Shown: in pieces, positions 5,857 to 20,545 of the stretch
Layout: the number at the start of each line of letters is the position of its first letter
How positions within the stretch are numbered: the first letter of the stretch is position 1
Origin: a virus
DNA length: 20,545 bases
IMG/VR virus record: IMGVR_UViG_3300009374_000538
Location: 1 to 20,545 of that record
Direction: 5' to 3' (one strand)
The notes under the pieces: model-generated
Seen by the model: the letters and a program-made list of their open reading frames with translations, nothing else
Database searches by the model: none
Told to the model about the DNA's origin: nothing
Program-made: the position numbers and the translations under genes

Positions 5857-6186
5857 ATGTCACAATTCAAGTATAGGTTGAAAGAAGGGTTTGGGGCGCA
5901 TTATGGTAGGGCTGAAGGTAAAAAGGGCGGATTGAAGAGGATGAAACCGGGCACGGAAATAACGGTTGATGATCCGTCCGATTTGGGTGGGGTGGCTTTT
6001 AAGTTTGAGCTGATTGAGACGGTCCCTGATGAAGAGGAGCAGACCGAAGTCAGCTGGCTCGAAATGAAACACGTGGGCGGCGGAAGATATAATGTCGTCA
6101 ACACCGAGACGGGCCGCAACCTCAACGATGATTACCTGTCCAAGAAGGAAGCCACAGCCCTGATTGCCGAGCAAATGGAAGAATGA
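5857..6186 (+). CDS. Small virion-cluster protein of unknown function
   Basis: A 109-residue hydrophilic protein. It has a basic N-terminal half (KYRLKEGFG, GKKGGLKRM), a PGTEITVDDPSDL segment, and an acidic C-terminus. The ATG at 5857 has GGAAGGAG upstream. It sits where head-tail joining genes are usually found, after the capsid gene, but I see no motif tying it to a known connector. It is the last gene before the sugar-modifying cassette, separated from it by about four bases. Confidence 0.68.
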   Translation: MSQFKYRLKEGFGAHYGRAEGKKGGLKRMKPGTEITVDDPSDLGGVAFKFELIETVPDEEEQTEVSWLEMKHVGGGRYNVVNTETGRNLNDDYLSKKEATALIAEQMEE

Positions 6187-6190
6187 TCCA

Positions 6191-6835
6191 GTGGCTCGGT
6201 GGGTAGTCCCTAAACTTTGGCCTGGAGCGACAGTTGCGATTCTGGGCGGCGGTCCGAGTCTGATTGGTCAAGATTTATGCTATGATCTTGAGGCACTTTT
6301 GTCTCCCTTTCGGATCATTGGCGTCAATAATTCCTATCGATTCGGACCATGGGTTGATGTTTGCTGGTTCGGAGATTCCAATTGGTACAAACAACATCAT
6401 TACGAGTTGCGCACGTTTCCGGGGTTGAAGATCTGTTGTCAGCCTCAACTCGAAGACGATCCGGGGGCAAGGGCCGAAGGCATCAAGGTAATAGCCAGAG
6501 GTCAACCGGAGGGATTAGAAAGGCGCAAGGGATACGTGTGTTGGAACCGGAGCAGCGGGGCGTCAGCAATCAATCTCGCTGTAATTTTCGGGGCCAAACG
6601 CATTATATTATTGGGTTTCGATATGCGGGTGATCAACGGAACAAAGAACTGGCACAAGGATCACCGCAGTCAGGACCACGATCCATTCGAACGGTTCCTT
6701 CAGCCATTTCCAGCGATCAAGAGAGATGCCGAAAAGATGAAGGTGGAAATCTTGAACGCAACGCCTGATAGCGGGTTGAAAGATCTGTTTCCATATGTAA
6801 CATTATCGGAGATTGCGAAGTGGGCAAAACCGTAA
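6191..6835 (+). CDS. MptE/DUF115-like Rossmann protein, copy 1 (putative sugar transferase)
   Basis: A 214-residue protein with the glycine-rich loop GGGPSL at 19-24, then VNNSYRFGPWVDVCWFGD, CWNRSSGASAINLA and GAKRIILLGFDM. This is the layout of the MptE-like/DUF115 family, whose fold is shared by Maf proteins that put nonulosonic acids on flagellin and resembles GT42 sialyltransferases. The end carries ILNATPDSG. Substrate unknown; a role in glycan transfer fits the neighbours. The GTG at 6191 is preceded by GGAAG at nine bases and leaves six residues before the PKLW motif. A TTG at 6164, overlapping the previous gene, is the alternative. It overlaps its paralogue downstream by 16 bases. 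Confidence 0.78.
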   Translation: MARWVVPKLWPGATVAILGGGPSLIGQDLCYDLEALLSPFRIIGVNNSYRFGPWVDVCWFGDSNWYKQHHYELRTFPGLKICCQPQLEDDPGARAEGIKVIARGQPEGLERRKGYVCWNRSSGASAINLAVIFGAKRIILLGFDMRVINGTKNWHKDHRSQDHDPFERFLQPFPAIKRDAEKMKVEILNATPDSGLKDLFPYVTLSEIAKWAKP

Positions 6836-7491
6836 ACAGCGAAGGGGCCAGCTACATAGCGCCGAAAATGTGGAAGGGTGAAACCGCGATTGTAATTGGC
6901 GGCGGTCCTTCGCTGATTGGGATGGATTTGTGTCTTCCGTATCCGGGGCTTGAAAGATATTTTGATCGCAATCGTGTTATCGGGGTTAACAGCGCCTGTT
7001 ATTTCGGTCCGTCAATTGACGTCTGTTTTTTCGGAGACGCGAAATGGTACTGGCACAATCGGGATTATCTCCAGAAGGAATTTAGCGGATTGATGGTCAC
7101 GGTTAACGCCAGAGTTCCGGGCCGGGAACCGGGAGTGGAGAACGAGCCAAATGTGAATGTGATTCGCAGGGGTGGTTCGAGAGGGGTGCTGTTCGACGGA
7201 GATGCGATTTGCTGGAACAAATCCTCTGGAGGAGCAGCGATCAACCTGGCGGTGTTATTTGGGGCCAAGCGGATCGTCTTGCTTGGATACGACATGAAAC
7301 GGGGCGGTGGAATGAAAAACTTTATTCCGCATCATTGGGAGAGCACAAATTCAAACCCGTATGAAGGAATGATGATGACGATGGAGCATCTCAAAACCTT
7401 TACGGACAAACGGGGCATAGAGATCCTGAACGCAACGCCCGGATCGGCGCTGAATGTATTCCCAAAGGTGAATCTTCATGAATGTTGTTGA
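6820..7491 (+). CDS. MptE/DUF115-like Rossmann protein, copy 2 (putative sugar transferase)
   Basis: A 223-residue paralogue of the preceding gene, with the same landmarks in order: PKMW (15-18), GGGPSL (27-32), VNSACYFGPSIDVCFFGD, CWNKSSGGAAINLA, GAKRIVLLGYDM, and ILNATPGSA at the end. The two copies clearly share an ancestor but differ at many positions, so the duplication is not recent. The region after GYDM differs most (a NFIPHHW segment here, NWHKDHR in copy 1), which may reflect different acceptors. Start GTG 6820 lies inside copy 1. The gene overlaps the GT-D fusion gene by 14 bases. Function inferred as for copy 1. Confidence 0.8.
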   Translation: MGKTVNSEGASYIAPKMWKGETAIVIGGGPSLIGMDLCLPYPGLERYFDRNRVIGVNSACYFGPSIDVCFFGDAKWYWHNRDYLQKEFSGLMVTVNARVPGREPGVENEPNVNVIRRGGSRGVLFDGDAICWNKSSGGAAINLAVLFGAKRIVLLGYDMKRGGGMKNFIPHHWESTNSNPYEGMMMTMEHLKTFTDKRGIEILNATPGSALNVFPKVNLHECC

Positions 7492-8680
7492 AGAATTTGA
7501 AACTGTTAAGACTATAAAGGAAACCGGGGCCAGCATCGCCCGGTATGGTGACGGGGAACTGCGGTGTGCCGTTGGTAATTCCGCTTGTTTCCAAAAGTCA
7601 GATCCGGTTATGGCAAAAATGCTCAAGAAGATCCTCCGGGAAGACGTGCCGGGGTTGTTGGTTGGAATTCCAAGGATTGCCGGGCCAAAAGCTCATTTGT
7701 GGGAAAAGATAATGGCCAAGCCTTCATTCGCTGAGATGTTAAATCCCAAGCATCAGTATTATTCAGCGTTCATTACCCGGCCTGATTCTGCTCCACAGAT
7801 CGATACGGGCGAATATTGGACTATGTGTAAATCCCTTTGGGAAGACCGGAACGTTGTGATGGTTGAAGGGACAGCGAAAAGATTCAGCAAGGGCAAGAAC
7901 GTATTTGACAATGCGAAGTCTGTTACAATTATTAGTGGGCCAAGCAAAGACGCCTTTGTGGAACTGGATCGGCTGACGAAAAAGGTTCTGGTTCATGACC
8001 CTGACGATTGCGTTGTGATCCTTTCGTTAGGCCCAACGGCTACCATCCTTGCGTATCAGCTTCATAAACACGGATATCAGGCGCTGGATATGGGTCACTG
8101 GTCGTCATTCTATAATCGGGCGCATCCCAAATCAAAGATCAAGGGTGTGGGGATGGTGATCACCGATTATCACCGGGATCAAAACCGTCAGCTTCATCGA
8201 AAGGACTATGGCGGCAGCGGATACAAATGGTCAAAGTTTGTTTATGATTTGATCGTGGGTTATAAGCTGAAGGGGTGGCTGGACTACGGTTGCGGTCAGT
8301 CCACGTTGTACAAGGAGTTCAAAAAGTTCCACAAGAAATGTAAAGTGGGCTACATTGAATATGATCCCGCCATACCTAAAAAGTCATGGCTCCCAATTTC
8401 ACGAGAGTTGGTGAGTTGTACGGATGTTCTGGAACATATCGAACCTGAGCTTTTGGATAATGTTTTAACGCACATATTTCAGCTGGCGAAAAAAGTGGTG
8501 TTTCTTGTTATTGCTTTGAACCCGGCCAACAAGGAATATCCAGACGGGCGGAACACACATCTGATTTTAGAATCTCCTGCTTGGTGGGTTGAGAAGTTGG
8601 CAAGACCGGGTTGGCGTATGCGGAGATTCAAAGCAGAGCGGACAGAAAAGGATCTGGTGATTGTTATGGTGAAAGAATGA
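7478..8680 (+). CDS. Two-domain enzyme: GT-D type glycosyltransferase fused to a class I methyltransferase
   Basis: A 400-residue protein. Residues 1-215 carry the GT-D (DUF1792-like) pattern: SIARYGDGEL (19-28, with the DGE motif), a VGIPR segment (62-66), LGPTATILAY (184-193) and QALDMGH (201-207). GT-D enzymes transfer sugars from nucleotide-sugars, known from serine-rich-repeat adhesin glycosylation. Residues about 255-400 are a SAM-dependent methyltransferase: DYGCGQ (269-274, motif I), YIEYDP (292-297) and CTDVLEHIEP (314-323). The join suggests one polypeptide that adds a sugar and methylates the glycan. No frameshift or stop lies between the halves. ATG 7478 has an AAAGGTG ribosome site. 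The stop overlaps the next ATG (ATGA). Confidence 0.85.
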   Translation: MNVVEEFETVKTIKETGASIARYGDGELRCAVGNSACFQKSDPVMAKMLKKILREDVPGLLVGIPRIAGPKAHLWEKIMAKPSFAEMLNPKHQYYSAFITRPDSAPQIDTGEYWTMCKSLWEDRNVVMVEGTAKRFSKGKNVFDNAKSVTIISGPSKDAFVELDRLTKKVLVHDPDDCVVILSLGPTATILAYQLHKHGYQALDMGHWSSFYNRAHPKSKIKGVGMVITDYHRDQNRQLHRKDYGGSGYKWSKFVYDLIVGYKLKGWLDYGCGQSTLYKEFKKFHKKCKVGYIEYDPAIPKKSWLPISRELVSCTDVLEHIEPELLDNVLTHIFQLAKKVVFLVIALNPANKEYPDGRNTHLILESPAWWVEKLARPGWRMRRFKAERTEKDLVIVMVKE

Positions 8681-9336
8681 AGCAGATGAAACAAATGGAG
8701 GGATGGTGGTGGCCTGATATGGCGAATGAGCGGCATGTACGGTTTTCTCTCACCCGTATTAAGTCTCTTCAGGCCGTTCTGAAGTATTGGAAACGCACAA
8801 GGTCAGTTATACAGGCTGGGGGCAGTTACGGGGTTTGGCCGAAGATGTTGGCAAAGAAGTATGACAACGTTTATACGTTCGAACCTGATGCGGTATCTTT
8901 CCGCTGTCTTTGCCGGAATTGCCCGGAGAAAAACATCCACGCTTTCCGGGCTGCGCTCGGTTATCGAAAGGAGTGTTTGACGATTCGGCCCAAAAGTTTC
9001 ACTGCCCACCGGGTGATTGGAGTGGGGGCCACGGTTGGAATAAGGGTTGATGATATCGGCTGGCCCAGATGTGATGCGATCCTGTTGGATGTGGAGGGGT
9101 TTGAGCCGTATGTTCTTCAGGCGGCCAAATCCACCATCCATACGTTCCGCCCGTTGGTGTTGGTTGAGATTCGTCCTGAGATGTTCAAGTTTTACGGATT
9201 GAAAGATGGCGCTTGTGAATCGTTCATGGAGAATATGGGATATATCGAAGTGGCCAATATTCAATGCGATAAGATTTTTGTTCATCATCTCGAAATGAAA
9301 CATTGGAAAAGACCGTTGGACGGGAAAGGGAAGTGA
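8677..9336 (+). CDS. FkbM family SAM-dependent methyltransferase
   Basis: A 219-residue protein with AGGSYGVWP (47-55, SAM-binding motif I), YTFEPD (66-71) and LLDVEGFEP (136-144), the marker of FkbM methyltransferases. These typically O-methylate sugars or polyketides and are frequent in capsule, O-antigen and flagellin glycan loci. The ATG at 8677 overlaps the previous TGA by four bases; an in-frame upstream start at 8611 is rejected because it would overlap the GT-D fusion far more. The start of the next gene overlaps the stop by one base (TGATG). Likely methylates a sugar made or transferred by its neighbours. Confidence 0.86.
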   Translation: MKQMKQMEGWWWPDMANERHVRFSLTRIKSLQAVLKYWKRTRSVIQAGGSYGVWPKMLAKKYDNVYTFEPDAVSFRCLCRNCPEKNIHAFRAALGYRKECLTIRPKSFTAHRVIGVGATVGIRVDDIGWPRCDAILLDVEGFEPYVLQAAKSTIHTFRPLVLVEIRPEMFKFYGLKDGACESFMENMGYIEVANIQCDKIFVHHLEMKHWKRPLDGKGK

Positions 9337-10097
9337 TGAAAGATTTGACGCTCATTGTTCCGTATTACGACAGCCCGGATATGTTTCAGGTTCAGCAAGA
9401 GAACTGGATGAGTTATCCAGAGAAGATCCGGGACCGAATGGAGTTCATCGTTGTGGATGATTGTTCTCAGGAGTTATACGCCAGAGACAACGTGATATTT
9501 CCTCCGGGTTTCCCGTTTCGATTGTTCTTTATTACAGAACATATGTTATGGAATTGGGAAGCAGCCCGGAACATTGGCGCCAAACACGCAGAGGGCAAGT
9601 GGTTGTTTCTAACGGATATGGATCACCTGTTACCGCCTAAAAGTTGCGGGAAGATCTTTGACCGAATTGATAACGGGCTTTCAGTTAACAAGCCCATGGA
9701 GGAACGGTTTTTTTATACGGTGGACCGGGTCAATGCGCCAGACTTAACTATGTACAAGAACCACCCAAACACGTATCTTCTTACACGTGAACTGTATTGG
9801 TACATAGGCGGATATGATGAGGAGTTTAACATCATCACCGGGGGCATATACGGCATGGACGGTCCTTTTCGCAGGTGGGCGGAGAAGATGACAGACGGGA
9901 ATATCCATCTGGATGGAATTCCAATTGTTCGGTATCCGAGGGAAATTGTGGCTGATGCCTCTTGTACTTTGCCACGGAAGACCGGGCGCAATGAAGCGGA
10001 TCTGAAAGCGGTTCGGGCGCTGGCCCGTCGAAAGATGGTGAAGGAAATTATGCCAACGGTTTTGAAATCGTCATATACAGAGGAGAAATGGGAATGA
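9336..10097 (+). CDS. GT-A fold glycosyltransferase (GT2-like)
   Basis: A 253-residue protein with the GT2-type opening LTLIVPYYDSP (4-14), IVVDDCS (38-44), the donor-side AARNIGAKHAEGKWL (76-90), and FLTDMDH (91-97), whose DMD is the metal and nucleotide-sugar binding DxD motif. GGYDEEF (158-164) matches the acceptor-side motif of galactosyl/GalNAc-type GT2 enzymes. No membrane segments, so it is soluble, unlike many lipid-linked GTs. ATG 9336 lies in the stop of the FkbM gene behind GGGAAAGGGAAG. Sugar and acceptor unknown. Confidence 0.85.
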   Translation: MKDLTLIVPYYDSPDMFQVQQENWMSYPEKIRDRMEFIVVDDCSQELYARDNVIFPPGFPFRLFFITEHMLWNWEAARNIGAKHAEGKWLFLTDMDHLLPPKSCGKIFDRIDNGLSVNKPMEERFFYTVDRVNAPDLTMYKNHPNTYLLTRELYWYIGGYDEEFNIITGGIYGMDGPFRRWAEKMTDGNIHLDGIPIVRYPREIVADASCTLPRKTGRNEADLKAVRALARRKMVKEIMPTVLKSSYTEEKWE

Positions 10098-10665
10098 GTT
10101 TAGCTACAATCACAGCTGATATCGATCAGCGCCCGGTGTTAGAGCATTTGGTCAATTCTCACGGATGGAAGAAGGGCGCTGAAGTTGGACTCCTTCGGGG
10201 CAAGACGTTTTTCCATATGCTGAAGACATTCCCGAATCTTCGACTGGTTGGAATAGATCCGTGGTTGACTGGTCTTCCGGGTTTCGGAGACAAAAATGGG
10301 AGAAGGGCTTTAACGCTTACAACGTTAACTTCATGGACGAATACGCTGAAAGGGTCACAACGGAAGCAAAAAAGCCCGGATACGATGGCAGAGCAGAAAT
10401 TCATCGCATGACGTCTCTGGAAGCTGGAGAGATGTTTCCAAATGAGACGTTTGATTATGTTTTCATTGACGGAGATCACCGGGAGTCTTTTGTCAGGGCG
10501 GATATTGCGGTCTGGGCACCGAAAGTGAAGCCAGATGGTTGGTTGATTGGACACGATTCGATAATCCCATCTGTTCAAAGGGCGGTTTGCGCGTTGCTGC
10601 CGGGCTGGCGGCCATATACAGGATCTGTTTGGGCGATACCGAAAAGAGAGATCAAATGGGCTTGA
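10094..10665 (+). pseudogene. Class I SAM methyltransferase interrupted by a single-base frameshift
   Basis: The N-terminal frame gives MSLATITADI..., AEVGLLRGK (29-37, motif I) and VGIDPW (52-57), then degenerates and stops at 10411 (105 residues). The same protein continues in the -1 frame with KWEKGFNAYN, then FDYVFIDGDH and KPDGWLIGHD, ending at 10665. The two halves join at the A-run of CAAAAAT at 10291-10297; adding one A restores a 190-residue Methyltransf_24-like enzyme. The cause may be a sequencing or assembly error in the homopolymer, a real mutation, or less likely recoding. Start ATG 10094 overlaps the previous stop (ATGA) with AGGAG eight bases upstream; ATG 10088 is too close to that site. 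If real, loss also breaks translational coupling to the next gene. Confidence 0.78.
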
Positions 10666-11288
10666 AGACTGAATATTTAAAATTCATGTTCGATAAGGTT
10701 TTGGGTTTTGATATTCCGCCACGGAAACATTATGCTATGTTGGAATTGGGAAATCAACGGATGAAGTACGGAGATGAGACGCTTTGGCCGTTTATTAATA
10801 CCATCAAGCTGTTTTCAAAGCAGCCGTTTACAGGCAAGGAATTTTTTACAAAGTTAGGTTATCATCATATCAGTATTGATTTGAATGGATTCGACGGGTC
10901 GCAGAGAATGAATTTGGCAACGCCGATTGTGGCTGAAAATCTTCTCTTTCAATTTGAAGTTCTGACAAACTTCGGGACCACCGAGCACGTGACGGATCAA
11001 TATCAATGTTTTCGAAATATAGACAACCTCGTGAAAGATAACGGGTATATGGTTCACCTTGTGCCGGCCAGAGGGAGAGGGACTGCGCATGGGCGGTGGC
11101 ATTATACTTTAGCGTTTTTTGCGATGCTGTCTGATCTGGCCGGTTATGAAATTGTTGCAGGTCCGGGTGTCCATTATTTTGGAAAGCCCGGTAATTTATA
11201 TATCACTTGTGGATACAAAAAGAAACGGGGCCATAATTTTATGAACCGCAAAGATTTTCCAATTGGGTTAATTGATAAAAATGAATAG
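10656..11288 (+). CDS. Methyltransferase-like protein
   Basis: A 210-residue protein with features of a class I SAM methyltransferase: MLELGNQ (28-34) at the motif I position, HISIDLNG (71-78) resembling motif II, and FEVLTNFGTTEHV (100-112), then DNGYMVHLVP (128-137) like the post-motif strand. Motif I lacks the usual GxGxG, so SAM binding is less certain than for the FkbM gene. Such divergent forms occur in polysaccharide and phage loci. ATG 10656 overlaps the end of the frameshifted methyltransferase gene; an earlier in-frame TTG would run far into it. Likely acts on a sugar or lipid-linked glycan; substrate unknown. Confidence 0.72.
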   Translation: MGLKTEYLKFMFDKVLGFDIPPRKHYAMLELGNQRMKYGDETLWPFINTIKLFSKQPFTGKEFFTKLGYHHISIDLNGFDGSQRMNLATPIVAENLLFQFEVLTNFGTTEHVTDQYQCFRNIDNLVKDNGYMVHLVPARGRGTAHGRWHYTLAFFAMLSDLAGYEIVAGPGVHYFGKPGNLYITCGYKKKRGHNFMNRKDFPIGLIDKNE

Positions 11289-11955
11289 GCCGATTGTCAT
11301 ATTGGGTTGTCCTCGTTCCGGGACTTCGTTGACTACTGGATGCTTTCATGTTTGTGGGGCTTGGGTGGGTCGATGTAGACCGGGAGACAAACGAAATCCA
11401 AAGGGCTATTTTGAAAACTTTCTGATTAACAATATCGTTTATATGGCCAATGAAAATATTCTGCCTGAAGAGATCCGGGCGCTAATTGTTGCTGCGATGG
11501 GCGCTCAAAAATATCGGGGTGGACCATGGGCGGTTAAGTTCGGGATTCATGTTGAAGCGGTTGAGCGGCTGGCACCTTTAAAGCCGGTCTGGGTTCTGGT
11601 TAGGCGGAATGTGAACGATATTGTCCAATCGCAAATACGCTCATTTGAATTGCGTCAGGAAATGAATCAGGTCGAACAGGACAAAAAGTTTGATGTTACC
11701 AAATCGCTTTCTAAGGCAATCCGGGCGAATCAGTTTCTGACGCAGGTCCGGGACAAATATCAGGATTCAGCTTTTGACATTTGGCCTTCGGATTTGATGA
11801 ACGGTAATTTTAAGGGTTTCAAAAAAGCGATCTCGTATTATGGTCAGGGGATGAATTTGGATCGTTCAAAGTTGAACGAGTTTATTGAACGCGCTCATTG
11901 GCATTTCGATACAAAGGAACGAGATGATTTCAGTGGTCACGTGGAAATGGAATAA
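11281..11955 (+). CDS. Sulfotransferase-like protein, copy 1
   Basis: A 224-residue P-loop protein. VILGCPRSGTSLTTG (6-20) is the 5'-phosphosulfate binding loop of PAPS-dependent sulfotransferases. VLVRRNVNDIVQS (105-117) fits the 3'-phosphate binding motif (Arg, then Asp-Ile-Val). KGYFENFLIN (41-50) is shared with the second copy at 13553. The family moves sulfate from PAPS to hydroxyls of sugars or other acceptors. No PAPS-making genes are present, so the host would supply the donor. ATG 11281 lies in the end of the methyltransferase-like gene; its ribosome site is weak, suggesting coupling. A kinase reading of the P-loop is less likely because of the CPRSGTS signature. Confidence 0.8.
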   Translation: MNRPIVILGCPRSGTSLTTGCFHVCGAWVGRCRPGDKRNPKGYFENFLINNIVYMANENILPEEIRALIVAAMGAQKYRGGPWAVKFGIHVEAVERLAPLKPVWVLVRRNVNDIVQSQIRSFELRQEMNQVEQDKKFDVTKSLSKAIRANQFLTQVRDKYQDSAFDIWPSDLMNGNFKGFKKAISYYGQGMNLDRSKLNEFIERAHWHFDTKERDDFSGHVEME

Positions 11956-12904
11956 CGGGTTACACCCAAAGAAAGGGCTGGTGTTCGGATCGAAGCATGT
12001 GAACGTCCTATACAGTATGATCTGGCGCCACCTTCATGTTCCATTTCGTTTCTTTTGTATCACGGATGATTCTCTTGGGCTTCACCCGGCCATCGTTCCT
12101 TTTAAGTTGTGGGATGATTATTCAGATACACCGGGATGTTTTCGGCGGCTGAAGATCTTTTCCACCGAGATGAAAAAATATTTTGGAGATCGGATATTGT
12201 CTGTGGATTTGGATTGCGTCATAACAGGAGACATCACCTCACTGGTCGAACGGGATGAAGACTTTGTTATCTGGGGAGAAGAATGGCGCAAGACAAAATA
12301 CTGCGGGTCATTATTCCTTTTGCGGACTGGAAGCAGAGCGCAGGTTTGGGAGGGCTTTAATCTGGAACAGTATCCGCCCAGACGCGATAAAATGTATCCG
12401 AAAGGAACAGACCAGTGGCGGATTTCTGATTGTTTGTATCCGGGAGAAGCAACCTACACCTCAAGGGACGGGATATACAACCTTGAGTTTGACGTTCGAG
12501 TGAATATGAACAAGCGTCATATGCCGAAAGTCCGGGCACAACGGGACCAGACAAGAAGGGAAGTGGGGAAGCTGAACAATCGGATCAAACGAGTTCAAGC
12601 GGAACTGGATGCGGATCTTCCAAGAAAATATTCGTCGAAGTTTCGGCAGAAAAAGTGGGAGACTTTAGAACGGGAACGTCAAGAACGGGATTACAAAGAT
12701 TTGAGTGAGCGACGTGCGAAGTTATTTGGATCACTCCCGGAGAACAAAGGCGTTGTTCACCGGGGCAAAAAGCGAATAAAGGTGAAGGGCGGAGACGGAC
12801 TTTTGCCCGATAATTCCCGGATTGTTTTTTTCAATGGAAAGTATGACCCATCACAGGACTGGTTACAAGAGGAGTTGCCGTGGATAAAAGACCATTGGAG
12901 ATAA
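11924..12904 (+). CDS. GT-A glycosyltransferase with a charged coiled-coil insertion
   Basis: A 326-residue protein. ISVVTWKWN (2-10), a KHVNVLY segment (24-30), RFFCITDD (42-49), GCFRRLK (71-77) and ILSVDLDCVITGD (91-103, with the DxD motif) mark a phage-borne GT-A family related to GT8/GT32-type enzymes. The closing motif SRIVFFNGKYDP (298-309) and PWIKDHWR (319-326) are also typical. Between DGIYNLEFD (182-190) and the closing motif lies about 100 residues dominated by Arg, Lys, Glu and Gln (193-290), which looks like a coiled coil and is absent from the sister gene at 12880. ATG 11924 has AAGGA six bases upstream and sits in the sulfotransferase gene. Sugar unknown. Confidence 0.82.
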   Translation: MISVVTWKWNNGLHPKKGLVFGSKHVNVLYSMIWRHLHVPFRFFCITDDSLGLHPAIVPFKLWDDYSDTPGCFRRLKIFSTEMKKYFGDRILSVDLDCVITGDITSLVERDEDFVIWGEEWRKTKYCGSLFLLRTGSRAQVWEGFNLEQYPPRRDKMYPKGTDQWRISDCLYPGEATYTSRDGIYNLEFDVRVNMNKRHMPKVRAQRDQTRREVGKLNNRIKRVQAELDADLPRKYSSKFRQKKWETLERERQERDYKDLSERRAKLFGSLPENKGVVHRGKKRIKVKGGDGLLPDNSRIVFFNGKYDPSQDWLQEELPWIKDHWR

Positions 12905-13560
12905 CTGTCTGTTGTTTCTTTTGGGGTGATTGGTGTGAACCACACGGGCCAGATTATGTCAACCGGCTTTTCCGGGGCGTGAAAAAGCATTTGACCGTTC
13001 CTCATAGGTTCGTTTGTTTTACTGACCGTTTGATAGGTCACAAATTGGAGTCTGGGATTGAGACAATCAAATTCGATCTTCCACGGTGGGATTGGAACTT
13101 GCGGAAATCGTTTCTATTTAATCCAAATAACGGATTAAAGGGAAGGGTTGTCTGTTTGGATTTGGATGTCGTTATCGTGGCGGATTTTGGCGATTTAGCC
13201 GGTTATGACGGTTGGTTCGCCACCTGTGAGGCAGCGTACCGGAAGAAGAAGTGCGGCGGCAGCATTATCGGGTTTGAAGCCGGTGATAAACAGCTTCAGG
13301 AATTACTCTGGAACCCGTTGTTGCGGGACCGAAAAATCATTGAACAACAGACGATGGGATCTGAACGAAAGTATTTCAATCAAAGGCTTCCAATGTCGCA
13401 GATCGACTTTTGGCAACAGCTGTATCCGGGGAAAGTTCTGAGCTACAAGCTGGATTGTAAAGAGGGGTTGCCGGACGGGGCTTCAATAGTTCGTTTTCAC
13501 GGAAGACCGAGACCACACGAAGTTAATGATGACTGGGTGAAGGAACATTGGTATGGATGA
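12880..13560 (+). CDS. GT-A glycosyltransferase, sister of the preceding gene
   Basis: A 226-residue protein with the same core as the gene before it: YVNRLFRGVKKHL (26-38), HRFVCFTD (42-49), RVVCLDLDVVIVAD (89-102, DxD at 94-96) and the closing SIVRFHGRPRP and WVKEHW. It lacks the charged insertion of its neighbour. The GTG start at 12880 sits behind AAGAGGAG inside the preceding gene (25-base overlap). Soluble, no membrane segments. The two may add successive sugars. The next gene starts eight bases before its stop. Confidence 0.82.
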   Translation: MDKRPLEITVCCFFWGDWCEPHGPDYVNRLFRGVKKHLTVPHRFVCFTDRLIGHKLESGIETIKFDLPRWDWNLRKSFLFNPNNGLKGRVVCLDLDVVIVADFGDLAGYDGWFATCEAAYRKKKCGGSIIGFEAGDKQLQELLWNPLLRDRKIIEQQTMGSERKYFNQRLPMSQIDFWQQLYPGKVLSYKLDCKEGLPDGASIVRFHGRPRPHEVNDDWVKEHWYG

Positions 13561-14269
13561 AGTAAAGAAAACCATGAGCGATATAGACAGGCCCATTCTG
13601 ATTACGGGGTGCGCCAGATCCGGGACCAGTATGACAGCCGGCATTATTGCTTTGTCCGGGGCGTGGGGCGGTCAGGTAGCAGGGCCAACGAATCAAAATC
13701 GGAAAGGGATGTTTGAGAATTCCAAAATCAGGCGGACAATTGTGAAGCCGTTTTTGAAATCTTTGGGTTGCGATCCTATGGGCCAAGATCCTCTCCCGGA
13801 TATAGATGCGGTGAAGCTGGTTACGTGGAAGACTGTATACAACTGGCGTAAGCGGATCAAGGGTGTGATTCTACATCAGGGCTATGAGGGCGGCATTTGG
13901 TATTACAAAGGGGCGAAGATGGCGAACCACTGGCCCATCTGGTCAAGGGCTTTCCCGTATGCCCGGTGGATTGTTGTTAGGCGGAAAAGTGACGAGATTG
14001 TGAAGTCCTGCTTGAAGACAAGTTTCATGCGGGCTTTTAAAACTAGTGAGGGCTGGTTTAGGTGGGTTGACTATCACAAGGACCGATTTCTGGAAATGGA
14101 AGAAGCAGGAATGGATATTCAGTACGTCTGGCCCCAAAAGATGATTGATTTCGATCTCTCGGAGATCAAAGGCGTTGTTCAGCATTTAGGACTTCGGTGG
14201 GATCGGGAAAAAATTGAGAAATTTATCGAACCGGCGTTGTGGTCAGGAGGACAAAGCAATGGCAAATAG
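13553..14269 (+). CDS. Sulfotransferase-like protein, copy 2
   Basis: A 238-residue P-loop protein homologous to the gene at 11281. LITGCARSGTSMTAG (16-30) is the phosphosulfate loop, with Ala replacing the usual Pro. NRKGMFENSKIRR (49-61) corresponds to the KGYFEN block of copy 1, and VVRRKSDEIVKS (141-152) is the second PAPS motif. The middle is richer in aromatic residues than copy 1, suggesting a different acceptor. ATG 13553 has AAGGA eight bases upstream. Its last 11 bases overlap the head-tail connector gene, making it the final member of the cassette and tying it to virion genes. Confidence 0.8.
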   Translation: MDEVKKTMSDIDRPILITGCARSGTSMTAGIIALSGAWGGQVAGPTNQNRKGMFENSKIRRTIVKPFLKSLGCDPMGQDPLPDIDAVKLVTWKTVYNWRKRIKGVILHQGYEGGIWYYKGAKMANHWPIWSRAFPYARWIVVRRKSDEIVKSCLKTSFMRAFKTSEGWFRWVDYHKDRFLEMEEAGMDIQYVWPQKMIDFDLSEIKGVVQHLGLRWDREKIEKFIEPALWSGGQSNGK

Positions 14270-14651
14270 AGTTACAGGAGCAGAAGTTATCGCCATAATG
14301 GATACAACCTTGACCGCTGTGACCATTGATCCTTTTATTACCGTGGCCAATCTGGTTGTGACGGAGAAACTGACTGATGCCGGGCATTCGGCGGCGTTGT
14401 TGAAGGAGATCGAACGGTGGCTGGCGGCGCATTTTGCTACGGTCAAAGATCCGCGTATCATGAATGAGAAAGCTGGCGATATGTCTGCCAAGTATGAAGT
14501 GGCGACGTTAGGAAAGGCGTTGGACGGGACCGTGTACGGTCAGACGGTCAAGGTGCTTGACTCCTCCGGGATACTCGCCAATGTAGGCAAGATGGCGGCA
14601 AAGTGGGAAACGATTGACAGTCCAAGTTATGATCCTGAGACGTCAAGTTAA
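14259..14651 (+). CDS. Head-tail connector (adaptor) protein
   Basis: A 130-residue protein with the helical pattern of phage head-tail adaptors (gp6/gp15-like): two N-terminal helices (VTGAEVIAIMD; DPFITVANLVVTEKL), LLKEIERWLAAHF with a conserved Trp, a DPRIM segment, MSAKYEV, and a C-terminal VKVLDSSGILANVGK. Such proteins form a ring under the portal that connects head to tail. The ATG at 14259 follows CAGGAGG at eight bases and lies within the end of the sulfotransferase gene. An in-frame start at 14214 is rejected as it has no ribosome site. Confidence 0.78.
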   Translation: MANRVTGAEVIAIMDTTLTAVTIDPFITVANLVVTEKLTDAGHSAALLKEIERWLAAHFATVKDPRIMNEKAGDMSAKYEVATLGKALDGTVYGQTVKVLDSSGILANVGKMAAKWETIDSPSYDPETSS

Positions 14652-14665
14652 AAGGAGACTGTGAT

Positions 14666-14962
14666 ATGGCAAAGAATGTAAGAGCAACGATAGCAGCAGC
14701 GGATACATTCACTGAATGGATTAGTCCAAGGGCCGGGAAAGGGATTGGCGGAGAGTTGAATTTGAGTATCTCTGGGACGTTTAGTGCAACCATCACTCTC
14801 CAGTGGCGGTTCGGATCTTCCGGCAGTGCGTTGGACGTGGAAGATTATACAGTGCCCTTTGAAGGATCTTTTGAGGAAATTGAAGAAGAAGTCCAATACA
14901 GGCTGGGCGCAAAGGCCGGGAATTATTCGTCTGGGTCGGCGGAAGTGAGGTTAAGCAAATGA
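14666..14962 (+). CDS. Small virion-associated protein of unknown function
   Basis: A 98-residue protein rich in Ser, Thr, Gly and beta-type residues. It contains GGELNLSISGTFSATITLQW and a closing YRLGAKAGNYSSGSAEVRLS, which reads like a beta-sandwich. Proteins of this pattern recur near head-tail genes in phages and are probably surface or fibre components; I recall the pattern only. ATG 14666 follows AAAGGAGA. The stop overlaps the next start (ATGA). Confidence 0.7.
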   Translation: MAKNVRATIAAADTFTEWISPRAGKGIGGELNLSISGTFSATITLQWRFGSSGSALDVEDYTVPFEGSFEEIEEEVQYRLGAKAGNYSSGSAEVRLSK

Positions 14963-15645
14963 GCGGACAAAGATTGCTTGGATTAGTTCGAGGGCTTTTG
15001 GCTCCTGGTATTGATTCCGCTGTGAACCGTTATATGCGGGATGTAATTGGAAACAAAAGTGATACTGTTGGCGGCGATTCAATTGTATCTCTGATAAAGA
15101 TACTGGACGCTGTGGCGGATCTTATACAGGCGGAAACGGACAAAATTGATTCTGCTGTAACAGACGGGTTGGCCGGGACTGTTAACAGTTTGACGTATAG
15201 GGTTCATGAGATTGAGAAACATTTCCATAACAACGATTGTTATTTTGGAGATGGAGGATCAAACGATCTGGCGGTCAATCTTACGGAGATTCAAATTGCG
15301 GCAGAGACCGGGCTGGCTTTTGGAAGTGAGCTTCAGATTCATGATGGGTCAACGATTATAGCCGGGATGACCAAATTGGATTTGGGGAAGATGCTTGTTA
15401 CAGCGATTAGCGCCACAAGCAAAGTATATCTTTTCCAATTTTGGGCCGGTGCTGGGGCGTTTGGAGACGCAACGCTGGTTTGTGAAGACGTTGGGTTTTT
15501 TCCAGCGTCAACAGGGCGTAGTGTTTCAATTCCGTTGCGATGTGCGCGTTTTAATATGTCTGATAAACTTTGGGTCAGATCTAAGTGTGAAACAAACGGG
15601 GCCACGTTGGATTTTCTGCCCGGCCTTCATGGATATGTAGCATAG
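14959..15645 (+). CDS. Virion-associated protein of unknown function
   Basis: A 228-residue protein. The first 85 residues are mostly helical (SIVSLIKILDAVADLIQAE) and could form a stalk or trimer. From about residue 90 the protein is beta-rich, with an HFHNNDCYFGDGG turn and Gly/Ala/Ser strands. This two-part design fits a small head or tail fibre, but there is no diagnostic motif. ATG 14959 overlaps the preceding stop by four bases, so the two are probably coupled and may work together. Function not recognised. Confidence 0.68.
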   Translation: MSGQRLLGLVRGLLAPGIDSAVNRYMRDVIGNKSDTVGGDSIVSLIKILDAVADLIQAETDKIDSAVTDGLAGTVNSLTYRVHEIEKHFHNNDCYFGDGGSNDLAVNLTEIQIAAETGLAFGSELQIHDGSTIIAGMTKLDLGKMLVTAISATSKVYLFQFWAGAGAFGDATLVCEDVGFFPASTGRSVSIPLRCARFNMSDKLWVRSKCETNGATLDFLPGLHGYVA

Positions 15646-15656
15646 GAAAACACATT

Positions 15657-16007
15657 ATGCCTTCAAACTTTTTAACTCGAAATCTGAAACAAACCGCCGT
15701 GTATTGGGGCAATCCGGTGTCGAACGGATACGGAGGATGGACGTTGGATTCTCCCGTGGAGATAAGTGTGCGGTGGGAGGATCGGAACGAGCTATTCACC
15801 AGCCCGGATGGCAGAGAAGAAGTTTCATCAGCGATCATCTACACGGCTCAGGACGTTGACATCGGTGGTTATCTGTTTCTGGGTGAACTCACGGATCTCT
15901 CCAGCAGCCAGTTGTATTCGGATGAAGACGACTCTTTCAAGATCCGGCAGTTTTCAAAATCTCCAAATCAACGGGTTAGTGGTTTTGCCCGGAAAGCGTT
16001 TTTGTAA
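15657..16007 (+). CDS. Head closure / head-tail joining protein
   Basis: A 116-residue protein. The opening QTAVYWGNPVSNGYGGWTL, the VRWEDRNELF segment and the closing NQRVSGFARKAFL match small head-closure (stopper) proteins, which plug the connector after DNA packaging. Its position between connector and tail completion genes agrees. AGGAAAA precedes the ATG. The stop overlaps the next gene's start (TAATG at 16005-16009). Confidence 0.75.
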   Translation: MPSNFLTRNLKQTAVYWGNPVSNGYGGWTLDSPVEISVRWEDRNELFTSPDGREEVSSAIIYTAQDVDIGGYLFLGELTDLSSSQLYSDEDDSFKIRQFSKSPNQRVSGFARKAFL

Positions 16008-16573
16008 TGGGCGGCAGATTAATCGGAACAGAAAAAGTACTTAAAAATCTCAACCGGGAGATTGGGAAAGTTGAAGGAGACGTGTTGGCTGGCGTTATTA
16101 CAGCGGCGTTATTTATCCGGGGCCGGTCTCAGGTGAAGACGCCTGTGGTTGAAGGTAATTTGCGAAATAGCGCATATGTGGTTTCCTCATCCGGTTCAAC
16201 AAATGCTGGATCCAGTCCTAAATTCACCGGGAGAGATTCCGGGAATATGGCCACACAGCATGTGGGAGAAATGACCAAACAACGAAACATTGCGAAACGA
16301 TCTTTGAAAAAATTCGGGCCAATGGCGTCAATTGGTTACAGCGCGGTGTATGCTTTGGCGGTTCACGAGAATCCAAGGGCCGGGAAGACAGGCGGATTTT
16401 CTCCCACAGGACAGAAGTATACAGCTGGGCGAAATCCGAGCGGCAGAAAAAGCACGCGCAAGGTTTTCTCCACAGTTGGGCAGTGGAAGTATTTGGAGAA
16501 TCCGTTGAACTCGAATAGCAAACGGGTTTTGGCTATCATTAAAAATAAAGCGAAAATCAGGGGCGGCGCATGA
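16007..16573 (+). CDS. HK97 gp10-like tail completion (minor capsid) protein
   Basis: A 188-residue basic protein. The N-terminal helix with a repeated hydrophobic spacing (VLKNLNREIGKVEGDVLAG), then VKTPVVEGNLRNSAYV, and ASIGYSAVYALAVHEN match the HK97 gp10 family, which completes the tail at its head-proximal end. The Gly/Ser/Lys-rich stretch after residue 125 is a probable surface loop. The next gene overlaps by four bases (ATGA at 16570). Confidence 0.78.
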   Translation: MGGRLIGTEKVLKNLNREIGKVEGDVLAGVITAALFIRGRSQVKTPVVEGNLRNSAYVVSSSGSTNAGSSPKFTGRDSGNMATQHVGEMTKQRNIAKRSLKKFGPMASIGYSAVYALAVHENPRAGKTGGFSPTGQKYTAGRNPSGRKSTRKVFSTVGQWKYLENPLNSNSKRVLAIIKNKAKIRGGA

Positions 16574-16956
16574 ATAGTCCTGCGGATGACATAAAAGATA
16601 TTCTTGAAGCGGCGGTGAGCAGTTGGAGTTTTGGAACTAACTTATTTGTTGCGTTGGAGCCACCGTCTCCCAACGAGGTCGTGAGCGTTTTTGATACAGG
16701 TGGCTTTGACCCAGACTCCAATACCGATTTGGAGAATCCAACTGTTATGGTGCGTGTTAGAGGAGATAGGGGTGGTTACACAGAGACTTATTCAAGGGCC
16801 AGAGACGTGAAGGACAATCTTCATGAACTCGCAAACGAGACGTGGAACGGCACAAGATATATAGGCATATGGCAGGTGGGCGATATTTTGTTCATTGGTA
16901 TGGATGAAAATGACCGCCCGGTCTTCACATTAAACTTTAGAATAATGAGAACGTAA
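16570..16956 (+). CDS. Tail terminator protein
   Basis: A 128-residue protein. SPADDIKDILE at the start, the NPTVMVRVRGD strand, an YSRARDVKDNLHEL helix and a C-terminal RPVFTLNFRIMR strand follow the alpha/beta layout of phage tail terminators (lambda gpU and DUF3168-like), which cap the tail and fix its length. Its place directly before the tail tube gene is canonical. ATG at 16570 overlaps the preceding stop. Confidence 0.75.
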   Translation: MNSPADDIKDILEAAVSSWSFGTNLFVALEPPSPNEVVSVFDTGGFDPDSNTDLENPTVMVRVRGDRGGYTETYSRARDVKDNLHELANETWNGTRYIGIWQVGDILFIGMDENDRPVFTLNFRIMRT

Positions 16957-16973
16957 AAAGAGGAGGACAAAAA

Positions 16974-17477
16974 ATGGAATTTATTAATCCAAAATTGATG
17001 TTTATTGTTTTATTACTGATTGCGGCGATTTGGTTTTGGAAAACCCAAATTGCATATACCACTAACGCAATTGCGGGCGTTGGAACCGTTTTCAAACGTG
17101 GAGACGGAACAAGCAGCGAAACATTCAACGCTGTATCGGAAGTTAACTCAATTACAGGACCAACAAAAAGCCGGGGCACAATTGATGTTACGTCTCTGGA
17201 TTCCACCGGAGGATACCGTGAATTTATTGCCAGCTTTCGGGATGCCGGGACGGTAGTGCTTAACATGAACTGGACAAGAGACGGGTTTGACGATTTGAAC
17301 GATGACTTTGAATCGGATTCAACCCGTAATTTCCAGATTGTGATGCCGGATACCGGAGAGACGACTTTTGATTTTGCCGCCTATGTGACGGATATTAATC
17401 AGGGCATTCCGTTTGACGATAAAATCACAATGGATGTGACGCTGAAGATCACCGGTCAGGTTACGCTGACTTCATAA
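16974..17477 (+). CDS. Major tail tube protein with an unexpected hydrophobic N-terminal segment
   Basis: A 167-residue protein. From about residue 31 it is a typical siphovirus tail tube: FKRGDGTSSETF (40-51), SITGPTKSRGTIDVTSLDST, YREFIASFRDAG, and a C-terminal DVTLKITGQVTL. The tube polymerises around the tape measure. The first 30 residues are atypical: LMFIVLLLIAAIWFW (8-22) is hydrophobic enough for a membrane helix, flanked by Lys7 and Lys23. The start is well supported by GAGGAGG upstream of ATG 16974, and no in-frame ATG follows the segment before the tube core, so it should be translated. A late start, processing, an assembly artefact or a real membrane anchor remain possible. Confidence 0.85.
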   Translation: MEFINPKLMFIVLLLIAAIWFWKTQIAYTTNAIAGVGTVFKRGDGTSSETFNAVSEVNSITGPTKSRGTIDVTSLDSTGGYREFIASFRDAGTVVLNMNWTRDGFDDLNDDFESDSTRNFQIVMPDTGETTFDFAAYVTDINQGIPFDDKITMDVTLKITGQVTLTS

Positions 17478-17524
17478 GGGTTGAAGAAGGAAACCAACTA
17501 ACCATAAAAAAAGGAGACAGGCGA

Positions 17525-17893
17525 ATGACTGAAACAAAATGTTTAAGCAAGGGTGATATTCTCAAGTCCAAGGATATTAAAATTGAGCGGGTGGAAGTTC
17601 CTGAGTGGGGTGGTCATACGTTCGTAAAAGTAATGTCCGGGATTGAGCGCGAGAATTATGAAGATTCAATCTTTGAGGTTTCCAAAGAAGGAACTAAAAG
17701 GAAACCTGGAAGTGTACGGGCAAAGCTGGTTGCCAAAACTATGTGCGATGAAAAAGGAAAACTTTTGTTTAATGAGTTAGAGATCCGGGATTTAGAAAAG
17801 AAATCTGGCAAGGCGCTGGATCGGGTTTTTGATTGTGCCAAAATTATAAACGGAATTGGCGCTGATACGGTGAAGGAAAACGCAAAAAACTAA
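17525..17893 (+). CDS. Tail assembly chaperone (lambda gpG-like)
   Basis: A 122-residue acidic/basic soluble protein between tail tube and tape measure genes, the invariant location of tail chaperones. It contains VPEWGGHTFVKVMSG, AKLVAKTMCDEKGKLLF and a C-terminal ALDRVFDCAKIINGI helix, like gpG/XkdN-type proteins that bind and solubilise the tape measure. It ends in a canonical slippery sequence followed at once by TAA, so a share of ribosomes should continue in the -1 frame to make a GT-like fusion with the next frame. Ribosome site AAAGGAGA upstream of ATG 17525. Confidence 0.82.
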   Translation: MTETKCLSKGDILKSKDIKIERVEVPEWGGHTFVKVMSGIERENYEDSIFEVSKEGTKRKPGSVRAKLVAKTMCDEKGKLLFNELEIRDLEKKSGKALDRVFDCAKIINGIGADTVKENAKN

Positions 17894-17943
17894 TTGAAAG
17901 GCCAGACCGGATGATGCTCCATAAACTGGCGCTGGCCTTTCAA
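17884..17943 (+). promoter_or_regulatory. Programmed -1 ribosomal frameshift signal (slippery heptamer plus stem-loop)
   Basis: A_AAA_AAC at 17884-17890 lies in the 0 frame of the chaperone gene (codons gca aaa aac) and the stop TAA follows directly. A perfect 12-base stem, ttgaaaggccag (17894-17905) with ctggcctttcaa (17932-17943), encloses a 26-base loop. Slipping back one base opens a frame that runs through to the stop at 18165. Both elements have the standard spacing of bacterial -1 signals. Confidence 0.85.
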
Positions 17944-18165
17944 CGAACGATTCCTGAGCTTGTAAAATCGATGGACAGCAACGAAATTGGAGAGTGGATT
18001 TCATATTTTCTTGCTGAACGGATGTTGGATGAAAAAGCGCACAAAAAGTCGCAGGAACCAAAGCAACAAACGTCTCAGGACCATATGGGGATTATGATGG
18101 CTTTGGCCGGTGGGAGTAAAGCTGGCAAAAGTAAAGGCAAAAAACGAATAGTGAGGAAACGATAA
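17911..18165 (+). CDS. Tail assembly chaperone extension (lambda gpT-like, made by -1 frameshift)
   Basis: The open frame with ATG at 17911 codes for 84 residues: MMLHKLALAFQRTIPELV at the start, then GEWISYFLAERML, then a basic tail. This is the gpT domain pattern. I infer it is mainly translated as the C-terminal part of a G-T fusion entered at 17890 through the slippery heptamer, which adds LIERPDR before the Met and gives about 213 residues in total. The fusion form recruits the tape measure to tube protein in lambda-type tails. Independent initiation at 17911 is possible (weak AAGG upstream). Confidence 0.8.
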   Translation: MMLHKLALAFQRTIPELVKSMDSNEIGEWISYFLAERMLDEKAHKKSQEPKQQTSQDHMGIMMALAGGSKAGKSKGKKRIVRKR

Positions 18166-20545
18166 ATGGCCAACATAGGATCGCTTGTTGCCCAGATAAA
18201 AGCCGACACGCAGGATTTAAAAAGAGGTATGACCGAAACAAAGTCAGCGGTCAGAGGGGCGGAAACTGGCGTCAATAACTCTATTGGCGGAATGAAGTTT
18301 GCTGCTATTGGTGTTGCTGCCACAGCTGCCGCTGGTGTTGTTGCTTTTCAAATGGGCCGGTTGGTGAAGTCGTCTTTAGGTGCTGCCAGCGATCTTGAAG
18401 AAGCTACCAGCAAGTTCGAAGCTGTATTCAGTAATTTGGCCCCCACAGATGTGATGGTTGATATTGCGGTCGGTGTTGAGGTTGATAAAACTGATATTGA
18501 GGGGAAGTTTGAAACCGCTTTTGCGGATATAAAGACGCCCGAAGTCGATGTCAACAAACTCACTATCAGTATTGACGACGTAAATGATTGGGTGGAGGTT
18601 TTAACAGATGGATACGCGATGTCTACCAAGGAAGCACGAACGTATTTGGGGGCGGTTCAGGATCTTCTTGTCCCCATGGGAGTGCTTCCTCAAGAAGCTG
18701 CTGTCTTATCCAATGAAATTGTCAAATTATCAGCCGATCTTGGTTCGTTTAATAACTTACCCACAGAAAAAGTTATGTTGGATATACAATCCGCTTTGGT
18801 GGGTAATTTCGAAACAATGAAAAAGTATGGGGTGGTGTTGAATGTGGCCCGGACGGAACAGGAAGCACTGTCCAGCGGATTAGCGAAAACAAAAGAGGAG
18901 GCACTTGACCCGGCCATCCGTGCTCAGGCGGCGTATAACTTAATCGTTAAAGGATCTGCGGCTGCAATTGGCGATATGGAACGGACCATGGACGGGTATG
19001 CAAATTCGCTCAAAGGCGCTGAAGCGGCGGCCAGCGAAGTGTCTGCCGGGCTTGGAAAAGATTTATTGCCGCTTGTTGCAGAATTGTTTCGTGAGTTTAC
19101 AGCGTTTTCTAAAAGTGAGGATTTCAAAGCTGCGTTGAGCGAATTGTCGAAAGATCTGGCTGAAGTGGGGCGTTTCGTTATTGCTATTGTGAAGCATATG
19201 CCCAAATTAATTTCGTTGGCCTTGGATCTTAAAAATATTATTTTTAAATTGCCCGGTGAAACGATTTATGATGTTATACACGCTGGGGTGTTATCTGCGA
19301 CAAAGGGAACGGATAAACTTCATGACGCTGAAAAAAGCCGGGCAAAAGGAGAATTGGCCCGAAGACGTTCCGCAAATAAAACGTGGGTGGATGCTCGCGC
19401 AAATATAACTTTAACATCAAAAGAAATCGATGAACTTTCAACGGGATTTGAAGACGCTGGACGTGTTGAAAAGAAATTTGTGGGCGATACTGTTCAGGGC
19501 GCTGCCAAAATGAAAGCTGCGCTTGAACAGGCTAATAAAGCTAAAATGAAAGCGTTGGCGGAAAGTGAAAAAGCAGCAGCGGAAGCAGCCCAAAAAGAAA
19601 TTGACGCGCTGGAAAAATTAGCGGCTGAAGCGTTGAAGGCTTACGAAAAAATTGTAGCTGCGCGCATGAAAGCTCGTGATGATGAATTTGAGATTGTCGA
19701 AGATATTGAATCCAGAATTCGAAAGGAGCGCAACGACAGTTTTGTTATAATGATTGGCGACATGAATCAACACACCGCCGATCTTAAAAAAGCGATGGAG
19801 GACTGGGCTAGAGAAGCAGATGTCATCAATGATGATATAGAAACAGCCAATAAACTTTCAGCGGAACAAATGGAATCTGATTTCAGTTCCGAGTTTTTGA
19901 ATGCTGTCAAAGAAGGTTTGGAGGGGTCTGTTAAGACGGGCGGAGAATGGCCCACGTGGCAAGAAGGGGTTGAAACAATCGCCAAAAGCGCAGCCACCGG
20001 GGCCAAAAGCGCATTGTCGAAATCGTTCTTTGTTGCCATTAAAGGGGACATGGACGGCTTCGAAGTGATCTGGCAAAGTTTTCTTGACGGTCTTTTGAAG
20101 TCCTTTACGGATACGGTGGCGGATCTCGTCGTAGGGGAGTTGGTTGAATTTGGCGGAAATCTCCTTTTTGATCTGGTTACGTCTTCTGCAGATGAAGGGC
20201 GCTGGAAAGTAAAGGAAGATCAAGTCATCAAAGTTCACGAAGGGGAAATGATCCTTCCAAAAGAAGTTTCAGAAACCTTGAGATCAGCGTTCAGCGGGGC
20301 TGGCCCGGCGTTGTCTCCGTCTTTAGATGCTGCGACAGCTTCAACAGCGGCAGCGGCGGCGTTCGGAAAGGGCGCAGGGCAATCGTTTGGGCTCTCAGCA
20401 GCGGCGTCTTTGGTTAGCATGGGAACGGTTCCGATTGCGGCTATTCCTTTAATGGGGCTAAAAGCTGTTCTCTCAGGTGTGTTAGGGGCAGGACAAGTTA
20501 CCTCCAGTGCGCAGGAGCTTGCGTCAAACCTCGTTGCGTCTGCGG
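18166..20545 (+). CDS. Tape measure protein (partial, runs off the window)
   Basis: 793 codons are open from ATG 18166 to the window edge with no stop. The ATG directly follows the chaperone stop behind GTGAGG. Residues 1-35 (SLVAQIKADTQDLKRGM) and a hydrophobic segment at about 45-66 open the protein. Residues about 70-330 fit the TMP family: FEAVFSN, YLGAVQDLLVPMG, LSADLGSFNNLPTEKV, GNFETMKKYGVVLN. A Lys/Ala/Glu-rich coiled coil spans about 440-520. WKVKEDQVIKVHEGEMILP near residue 690-710 recurs in tape measures, followed by an Ala-rich hydrophobic stretch. It sets tail length and forms the tail core. An extra segment of about 45 residues (93-138) interrupts the TMP domain. The C-terminus is missing. 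Confidence 0.85.
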   Translation, partial: MANIGSLVAQIKADTQDLKRGMTETKSAVRGAETGVNNSIGGMKFAAIGVAATAAAGVVAFQMGRLVKSSLGAASDLEEATSKFEAVFSNLAPTDVMVDIAVGVEVDKTDIEGKFETAFADIKTPEVDVNKLTISIDDVNDWVEVLTDGYAMSTKEARTYLGAVQDLLVPMGVLPQEAAVLSNEIVKLSADLGSFNNLPTEKVMLDIQSALVGNFETMKKYGVVLNVARTEQEALSSGLAKTKEEALDPAIRAQAAYNLIVKGSAAAIGDMERTMDGYANSLKGAEAAASEVSAGLGKDLLPLVAELFREFTAFSKSEDFKAALSELSKDLAEVGRFVIAIVKHMPKLISLALDLKNIIFKLPGETIYDVIHAGVLSATKGTDKLHDAEKSRAKGELARRRSANKTWVDARANITLTSKEIDELSTGFEDAGRVEKKFVGDTVQGAAKMKAALEQANKAKMKALAESEKAAAEAAQKEIDALEKLAAEALKAYEKIVAARMKARDDEFEIVEDIESRIRKERNDSFVIMIGDMNQHTADLKKAMEDWAREADVINDDIETANKLSAEQMESDFSSEFLNAVKEGLEGSVKTGGEWPTWQEGVETIAKSAATGAKSALSKSFFVAIKGDMDGFEVIWQSFLDGLLKSFTDTVADLVVGELVEFGGNLLFDLVTSSADEGRWKVKEDQVIKVHEGEMILPKEVSETLRSAFSGAGPALSPSLDAATASTAAAAAFGKGAGQSFGLSAAASLVSMGTVPIAAIPLMGLKAVLSGVLGAGQVTSSAQELASNLVASA

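Follow-up and report, generated by a model that had tools for sequence, protein, structure and literature searches.

An in-frame hydrophobic leader on a lambda-type tail tube protein in a single viral lineage

Why would a tail tube protein, which belongs to the most constrained proteins of a phage, begin with a hydrophobic helix, and where could such a helix have come from? These questions are raised by the tube gene of a 20,545-nt stretch of DNA from an uncultivated phage (IMG/VR record IMGVR_UViG_3300009374_000538, hereafter the window). An earlier note, made from the sequence alone, had described a hydrophobic leader preceding the tube core. We have examined the start signal, composition, genomic surroundings and relatives of this gene. 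The leader is real, private to one lineage and very probably a genuine in-frame fusion within the tube gene.

The leader-tube reading frame

The tube gene lies in the order terminator, tube, assembly chaperone and tape measure, the last being assigned by position and length only. The features of the region are as follows.

16570–16956, + strand: tail terminator gene, the intact upstream neighbor (PF12691, E 8e-18; phrog_2595), the same as in most relatives
16960–16966, + strand: Shine-Dalgarno sequence GAGGAGG of the leader-tube ORF
16974–17048, + strand: leader residues 1–25, MEFINPKLMFIVLLLIAAIWFWKTQ, found in no relative
16989–17045, + strand: predicted single hydrophobic helix, residues 6–24 (AlphaFold2, pLDDT about 84–87 over residues 1–20)
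17049–17051, + strand: ATT (Ile26), possible site of the ancestral short-tube ATG (M-A-Y-T-T-N), aligned with M-A-S-N of the relatives and devoid of a Shine-Dalgarno sequence
17061–17474, + strand: tail-tube core, from TTNAIAGVG to the end (PF16461, PF06199, phrog_158; alignment; Foldseek and VIA-align to lambda gpV)
17525–17893, + strand: tail assembly chaperone, the downstream neighbor (phrog_344, E 2e-24)
17911–18165, + strand: second tail-assembly ORF (phrog_337, weak)
18166–20544, + strand: tape-measure-like ORF, still open where the window stops (position, length, composition and synteny; no family match)

Leader and tube core share one frame in the ORF at 16974–17477 (+ strand, 167 aa), with no stop between them. 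The only well-supported start is ATG 16974, which follows the Shine-Dalgarno sequence with a 7-nt spacer. The duplex energy of that sequence with the 16S tail is −12.0, a value reached by none of 1,000 random window positions and close to the median of the tube starts in the 36 relatives scored (−12.9). Upstream of the core, the only other in-frame ATG, GTG or TTG codons (TTG 16995 and ATG 16998) are internal to the leader and lack a Shine-Dalgarno sequence. The leader is thus part of the predicted protein, barring initiation at the near-cognate ATT 17049. Since the terminator stop is separated from ATG 16974 by 17 nt, compared with a median of 18 nt in the relatives, the insert sits behind a native-looking start site.

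The extra residues 1–27 consist of MEFINPKLMFIVLLLIAAIWFWKTQ-IA and are followed by the conserved tube N-terminus TNAIAGVG. The hydrophobic stretch, LMFIVLLLIAAIWFW, spans residues 8–22 (nt 16995–17039), in frame with ATG 16974. The hydrophobicity of the leader far exceeds what its base composition would give: when the same 72 nt were dinucleotide-shuffled, 6 of 2811 stop-free sequences were as hydrophobic, and among 20203 stop-free shuffled window segments none was. It is also the most hydrophobic segment among the + strand gene products tested, the runner-up being located in the tape-measure protein. The 72 nt after the ATG have a G+C content of 29%, compared with 48% for the window, which places them in the lowest 0.6% of 72-nt stretches. 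The low-G+C stretch starts already inside the 3′ end of the terminator gene, so that composition gives no sharp edge to the insert.

Elsewhere in the window, the major capsid gene is separated from the connector and tail genes by a block of roughly 8 kb (6164–14269) whose genes are of sugar and modification type. They include a tandem pair of sialyltransferase-like phrog_4603 ORFs, GT-D and family 2 glycosyltransferases, FkbM and other methyltransferases, and a sulfotransferase-like ORF. A Mu-F-like head morphogenesis protein (571–2436) carries the motif HELGH in its C-terminal part (residue 538), with a weak metallopeptidase-like profile match below the cut-off.

The tube core and its relatives

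Apart from the leader, the protein is an ordinary lambda-type tail tube. It matched PF16461 (37.8 bits, cut-off 26.1) and PF06199 (32.8 bits, cut-off 23.8) from residue 46 or later, and the PHROG major tail protein phrog_158 (E 3e-18) from residue 27. All residues invariant in 34 relatives are kept in the window tube, which is itself one row of that alignment. AlphaFold2 modeling with the relatives (pLDDT 80.5, pTM 0.62) gave a helix at residues 6–24, a low-confidence stretch at residues 27–35 and then the tube fold; as the leader has no aligned relatives, its modeled helix derives from a single sequence. Foldseek aligned the model to lambda gpV with an E of 1.6e-7, and VIA-align returned a Z of 12–13 over 129–138 residues. 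Monocin, GTA and T6SS tubes were matched as well, with the lambda-type rows aligning from about model residue 26–33. Compared with the lambda-type tail tube (gpV N-domain), profiles, fold and neighbors are alike, whereas the window protein adds 27 N-terminal residues with a hydrophobic helix and its relatives start directly at the core.

The relatives were collected by scanning IMG/VR three times, with a protein or a profile as query, and GTDB genomes once; their tubes are 50–69% identical. They align with the window tube from residues 28–32 on, in agreement with the earlier placement of the core start near residue 31. N-termini were compared in 122 distinct tubes (IMG/VR plus one MAG), eight loci not being scorable by motif search, and none of the 122 carries a leader like that of the window; the leader is indeed as unexpected for a tail tube as had been proposed. 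The distance from the start to the GVG motif is 34 residues in the window and usually, though not by definition, 4–8 in the relatives. The furthest possible in-frame start lies at most 8 residues before GVG in 116 of the 122 tubes and 11–24 residues before it in the remaining six; the two tubes with a possible start more than 12 residues before GVG have no hydrophobic stretch. A clear Shine-Dalgarno sequence precedes nearly all tube starts in the first two sets of relatives.

Six loci (L012, L018, L019, L022, L046 and L049) whose tblastn alignments extended up to residues 5–22 were rejected as leader carriers: the aligned DNA belongs to the upstream gene or the gap, its frame contains stops, and the true tube starts are short. 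In another relative (L028, 59–420), the N-terminus of the tube gene is broken and accompanied by an inverted partial copy near the contig end, either a hairpin assembly artefact or an inversion.

The leader DNA had one exact match in IMG/VR, the sibling contig L047 (IMGVR_UViG_3300009332_000139, 5213 nt), which corresponds to window positions 12858–18070 with zero differences and whose sample is possibly not independent. The carriers hence represent one lineage with two identical contigs, and the homologue comparison proposed in the earlier note found the leader in no relative besides this one.

Origin of the leader

We favor, with a probability of about 0.6, the view that a short stretch coding for a membrane helix was recently captured in frame behind the native tube start site. 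The tube gene would have gained approximately 75 bp in frame, directly behind its normal ribosome-binding site, and these would encode the single hydrophobic helix. The likeliest source would be a small membrane-protein gene, part of which was taken up in the gap between terminator and tube. Such a capture is favored because this gap holds extra small genes in some relatives: ORFs of 71 aa (L012), 182 aa (L054) and 93 plus 86 aa (L067), the last two being of membrane type. The L067 pair had no family match above the cut-off, and none in Pfam. The L067 proteins, encoded at 620–1161 of that locus between the upstream genes and the tube gene, both contain long hydrophobic stretches and are perhaps a lysis or membrane pair; neither shows sequence similarity to the leader. 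In two other relatives (L057 and L065), gaps of 100–106 nt contain terminator-like inverted repeats, each with a T run behind it, immediately before the Shine-Dalgarno sequence of the tube gene.

The leader resembles holin- and spanin-like single-helix phage proteins in its short N-terminal tail, its 15–19 apolar residues and the basic residue that follows; it differs from them in having no stop of its own, running into the tube core instead, and no homologue was found. Among the ideas of the earlier note, the best fit is a chimera in which a small membrane-protein gene was joined to the tube, given the odd composition, the preserved frame and the extra genes in the gap, but the search for its donor was negative. 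The leader peptide had no match in phages or plasmids, where the BLAST low-complexity filter may hide one. Degenerate patterns (IAAIWFW, NPKLMFIV and looser forms) retrieved from IMG/VR, besides the sibling, only unrelated reading frames. The junction DNA gave only chance matches to phages, and the window region had no nucleotide-level match to named phages. Pfam and PHROG gave no family match and NCBIfam only PP0621 (E 0.21, below the cut-off), 30 residues being too few to exclude kinship. The idea that the leader was copied from elsewhere in the window or from a relative's locus was rejected, the matches being only short words or loci chosen by the leader's own motif.

The remaining explanations are all less probable. 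The old ATG could have been lost and the start moved upstream into formerly non-coding gap DNA, whose T-rich sequence would be hydrophobic by accident. Gaps of 100–164 nt do exist in some relatives, and thymine-rich DNA tends to encode membrane helices (PMC7005711). However, the scarcity of equally hydrophobic shuffles of the same DNA (6 of 2811) argues against an accident of composition, and as the typical gap is 18 nt, an insertion would be needed anyway; we consider this route unlikely. The ATT codon at 17049 may be the former ATG of the short tube N-terminus, as judged from the alignment. If translation actually began there, yielding I/M-A-Y-T-T-N-A, the leader would be absent from the protein and its ORF a by-product. 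A product starting with M-A-Y-T-T-N would fit the N-terminus of the relatives, but ATT is very rarely used as a start, the Shine-Dalgarno energy at this codon (−3.3) equals the random median and falls far from that of the 36 relatives, and nothing blocks the strong upstream site, which shares the frame. Initiation at ATT is, for these reasons, quite improbable.

The confinement of the leader to one lineage would also be expected from an assembly chimera or a sequencing error. The earlier note had held that short N-termini in related phages and a misjoin would together undo its reading; the short N-termini were found, but a misjoin is not indicated. The genes flanking the junction on either side keep their order, a second contig of 5213 nt has the identical junction, and a misjoin does not place 75 bp between neighbors in standard order. 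Moreover, the junction contains no repeat and the ORF remains open. An artefact of this kind is very improbable.

Possible consequences for tail assembly

Under the favored capture, every tube subunit would carry the helix when made. The helix would insert into or touch the membrane, and would then be trimmed by a protease or kept off the ring by a flexible linker at about residues 25–35. The A-I-A nearest to the helix (residues 32–34) lies, by reading, 12 residues past the apolar stretch and inside the conserved tube N-terminus. A signal-peptidase site thus does not seem well placed, K23 also following the helix, and secretion of the tube by the host would not be expected. Positive residues behind a helix generally favor the cytoplasmic side for what follows. 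The basic residues after the helix are, by reading, K23 and then K41 and R42, so the core would favor the cytoplasmic side, although this argument is weak.

Known tubes use their N-terminus for contacts between rings, and T5 forms no tubes once it is deleted (PMC8718954). The N-terminal loop of the lambda tube becomes ordered between rings (PMC10721106), and the GTA tube N-terminus binds the terminator (PMC7296036). Because the tube N-terminus makes ring contacts, a helix of 19 apolar residues on each of the six subunits of a ring must be removed, held outside or used.

A helix put to use, along the lines of the membrane-targeting or assembly-holding segment suggested in the earlier note, could hold the tube subunits at the inner membrane while the tail is built, with a protease freeing them later. 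The modeled leader, one helix of about 19 residues followed by a flexible linker, and a favorable insertion-scale score are consistent with such a tether, and the T4 prohead offers a precedent (PMC8718954). This would-be precedent, the T4 procapsid with gp20 and gp40, concerns virion parts that assemble on the membrane before cleavage releases them; it differs in involving the head rather than the tail and in working through separate proteins. Against a tether, the helix is conserved in none of the 122 relatives, the known relatives all assemble without one, no cleavage site was identified and the orientation argument is weak. We regard a tether as doubtful. A siphophage-type tail with membrane-anchored tube precursors, in which the inner membrane would retain the assembling tube or proteolysis of the anchor would set the timing of assembly, is a still more tentative and unlikely picture.

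A natural tube gene with a membrane helix at a contact site offers a ready way to learn if an addition of this kind is tolerated, trimmed or exploited during tail assembly. A helix that is retained or put to use would imply a previously unrecognized membrane step in tail assembly, and a trimmed one would mean that there is a protease processing the tube; if the variant is neutral or a dead end, the locus would offer a momentary view of gene fusion affecting a structural gene.
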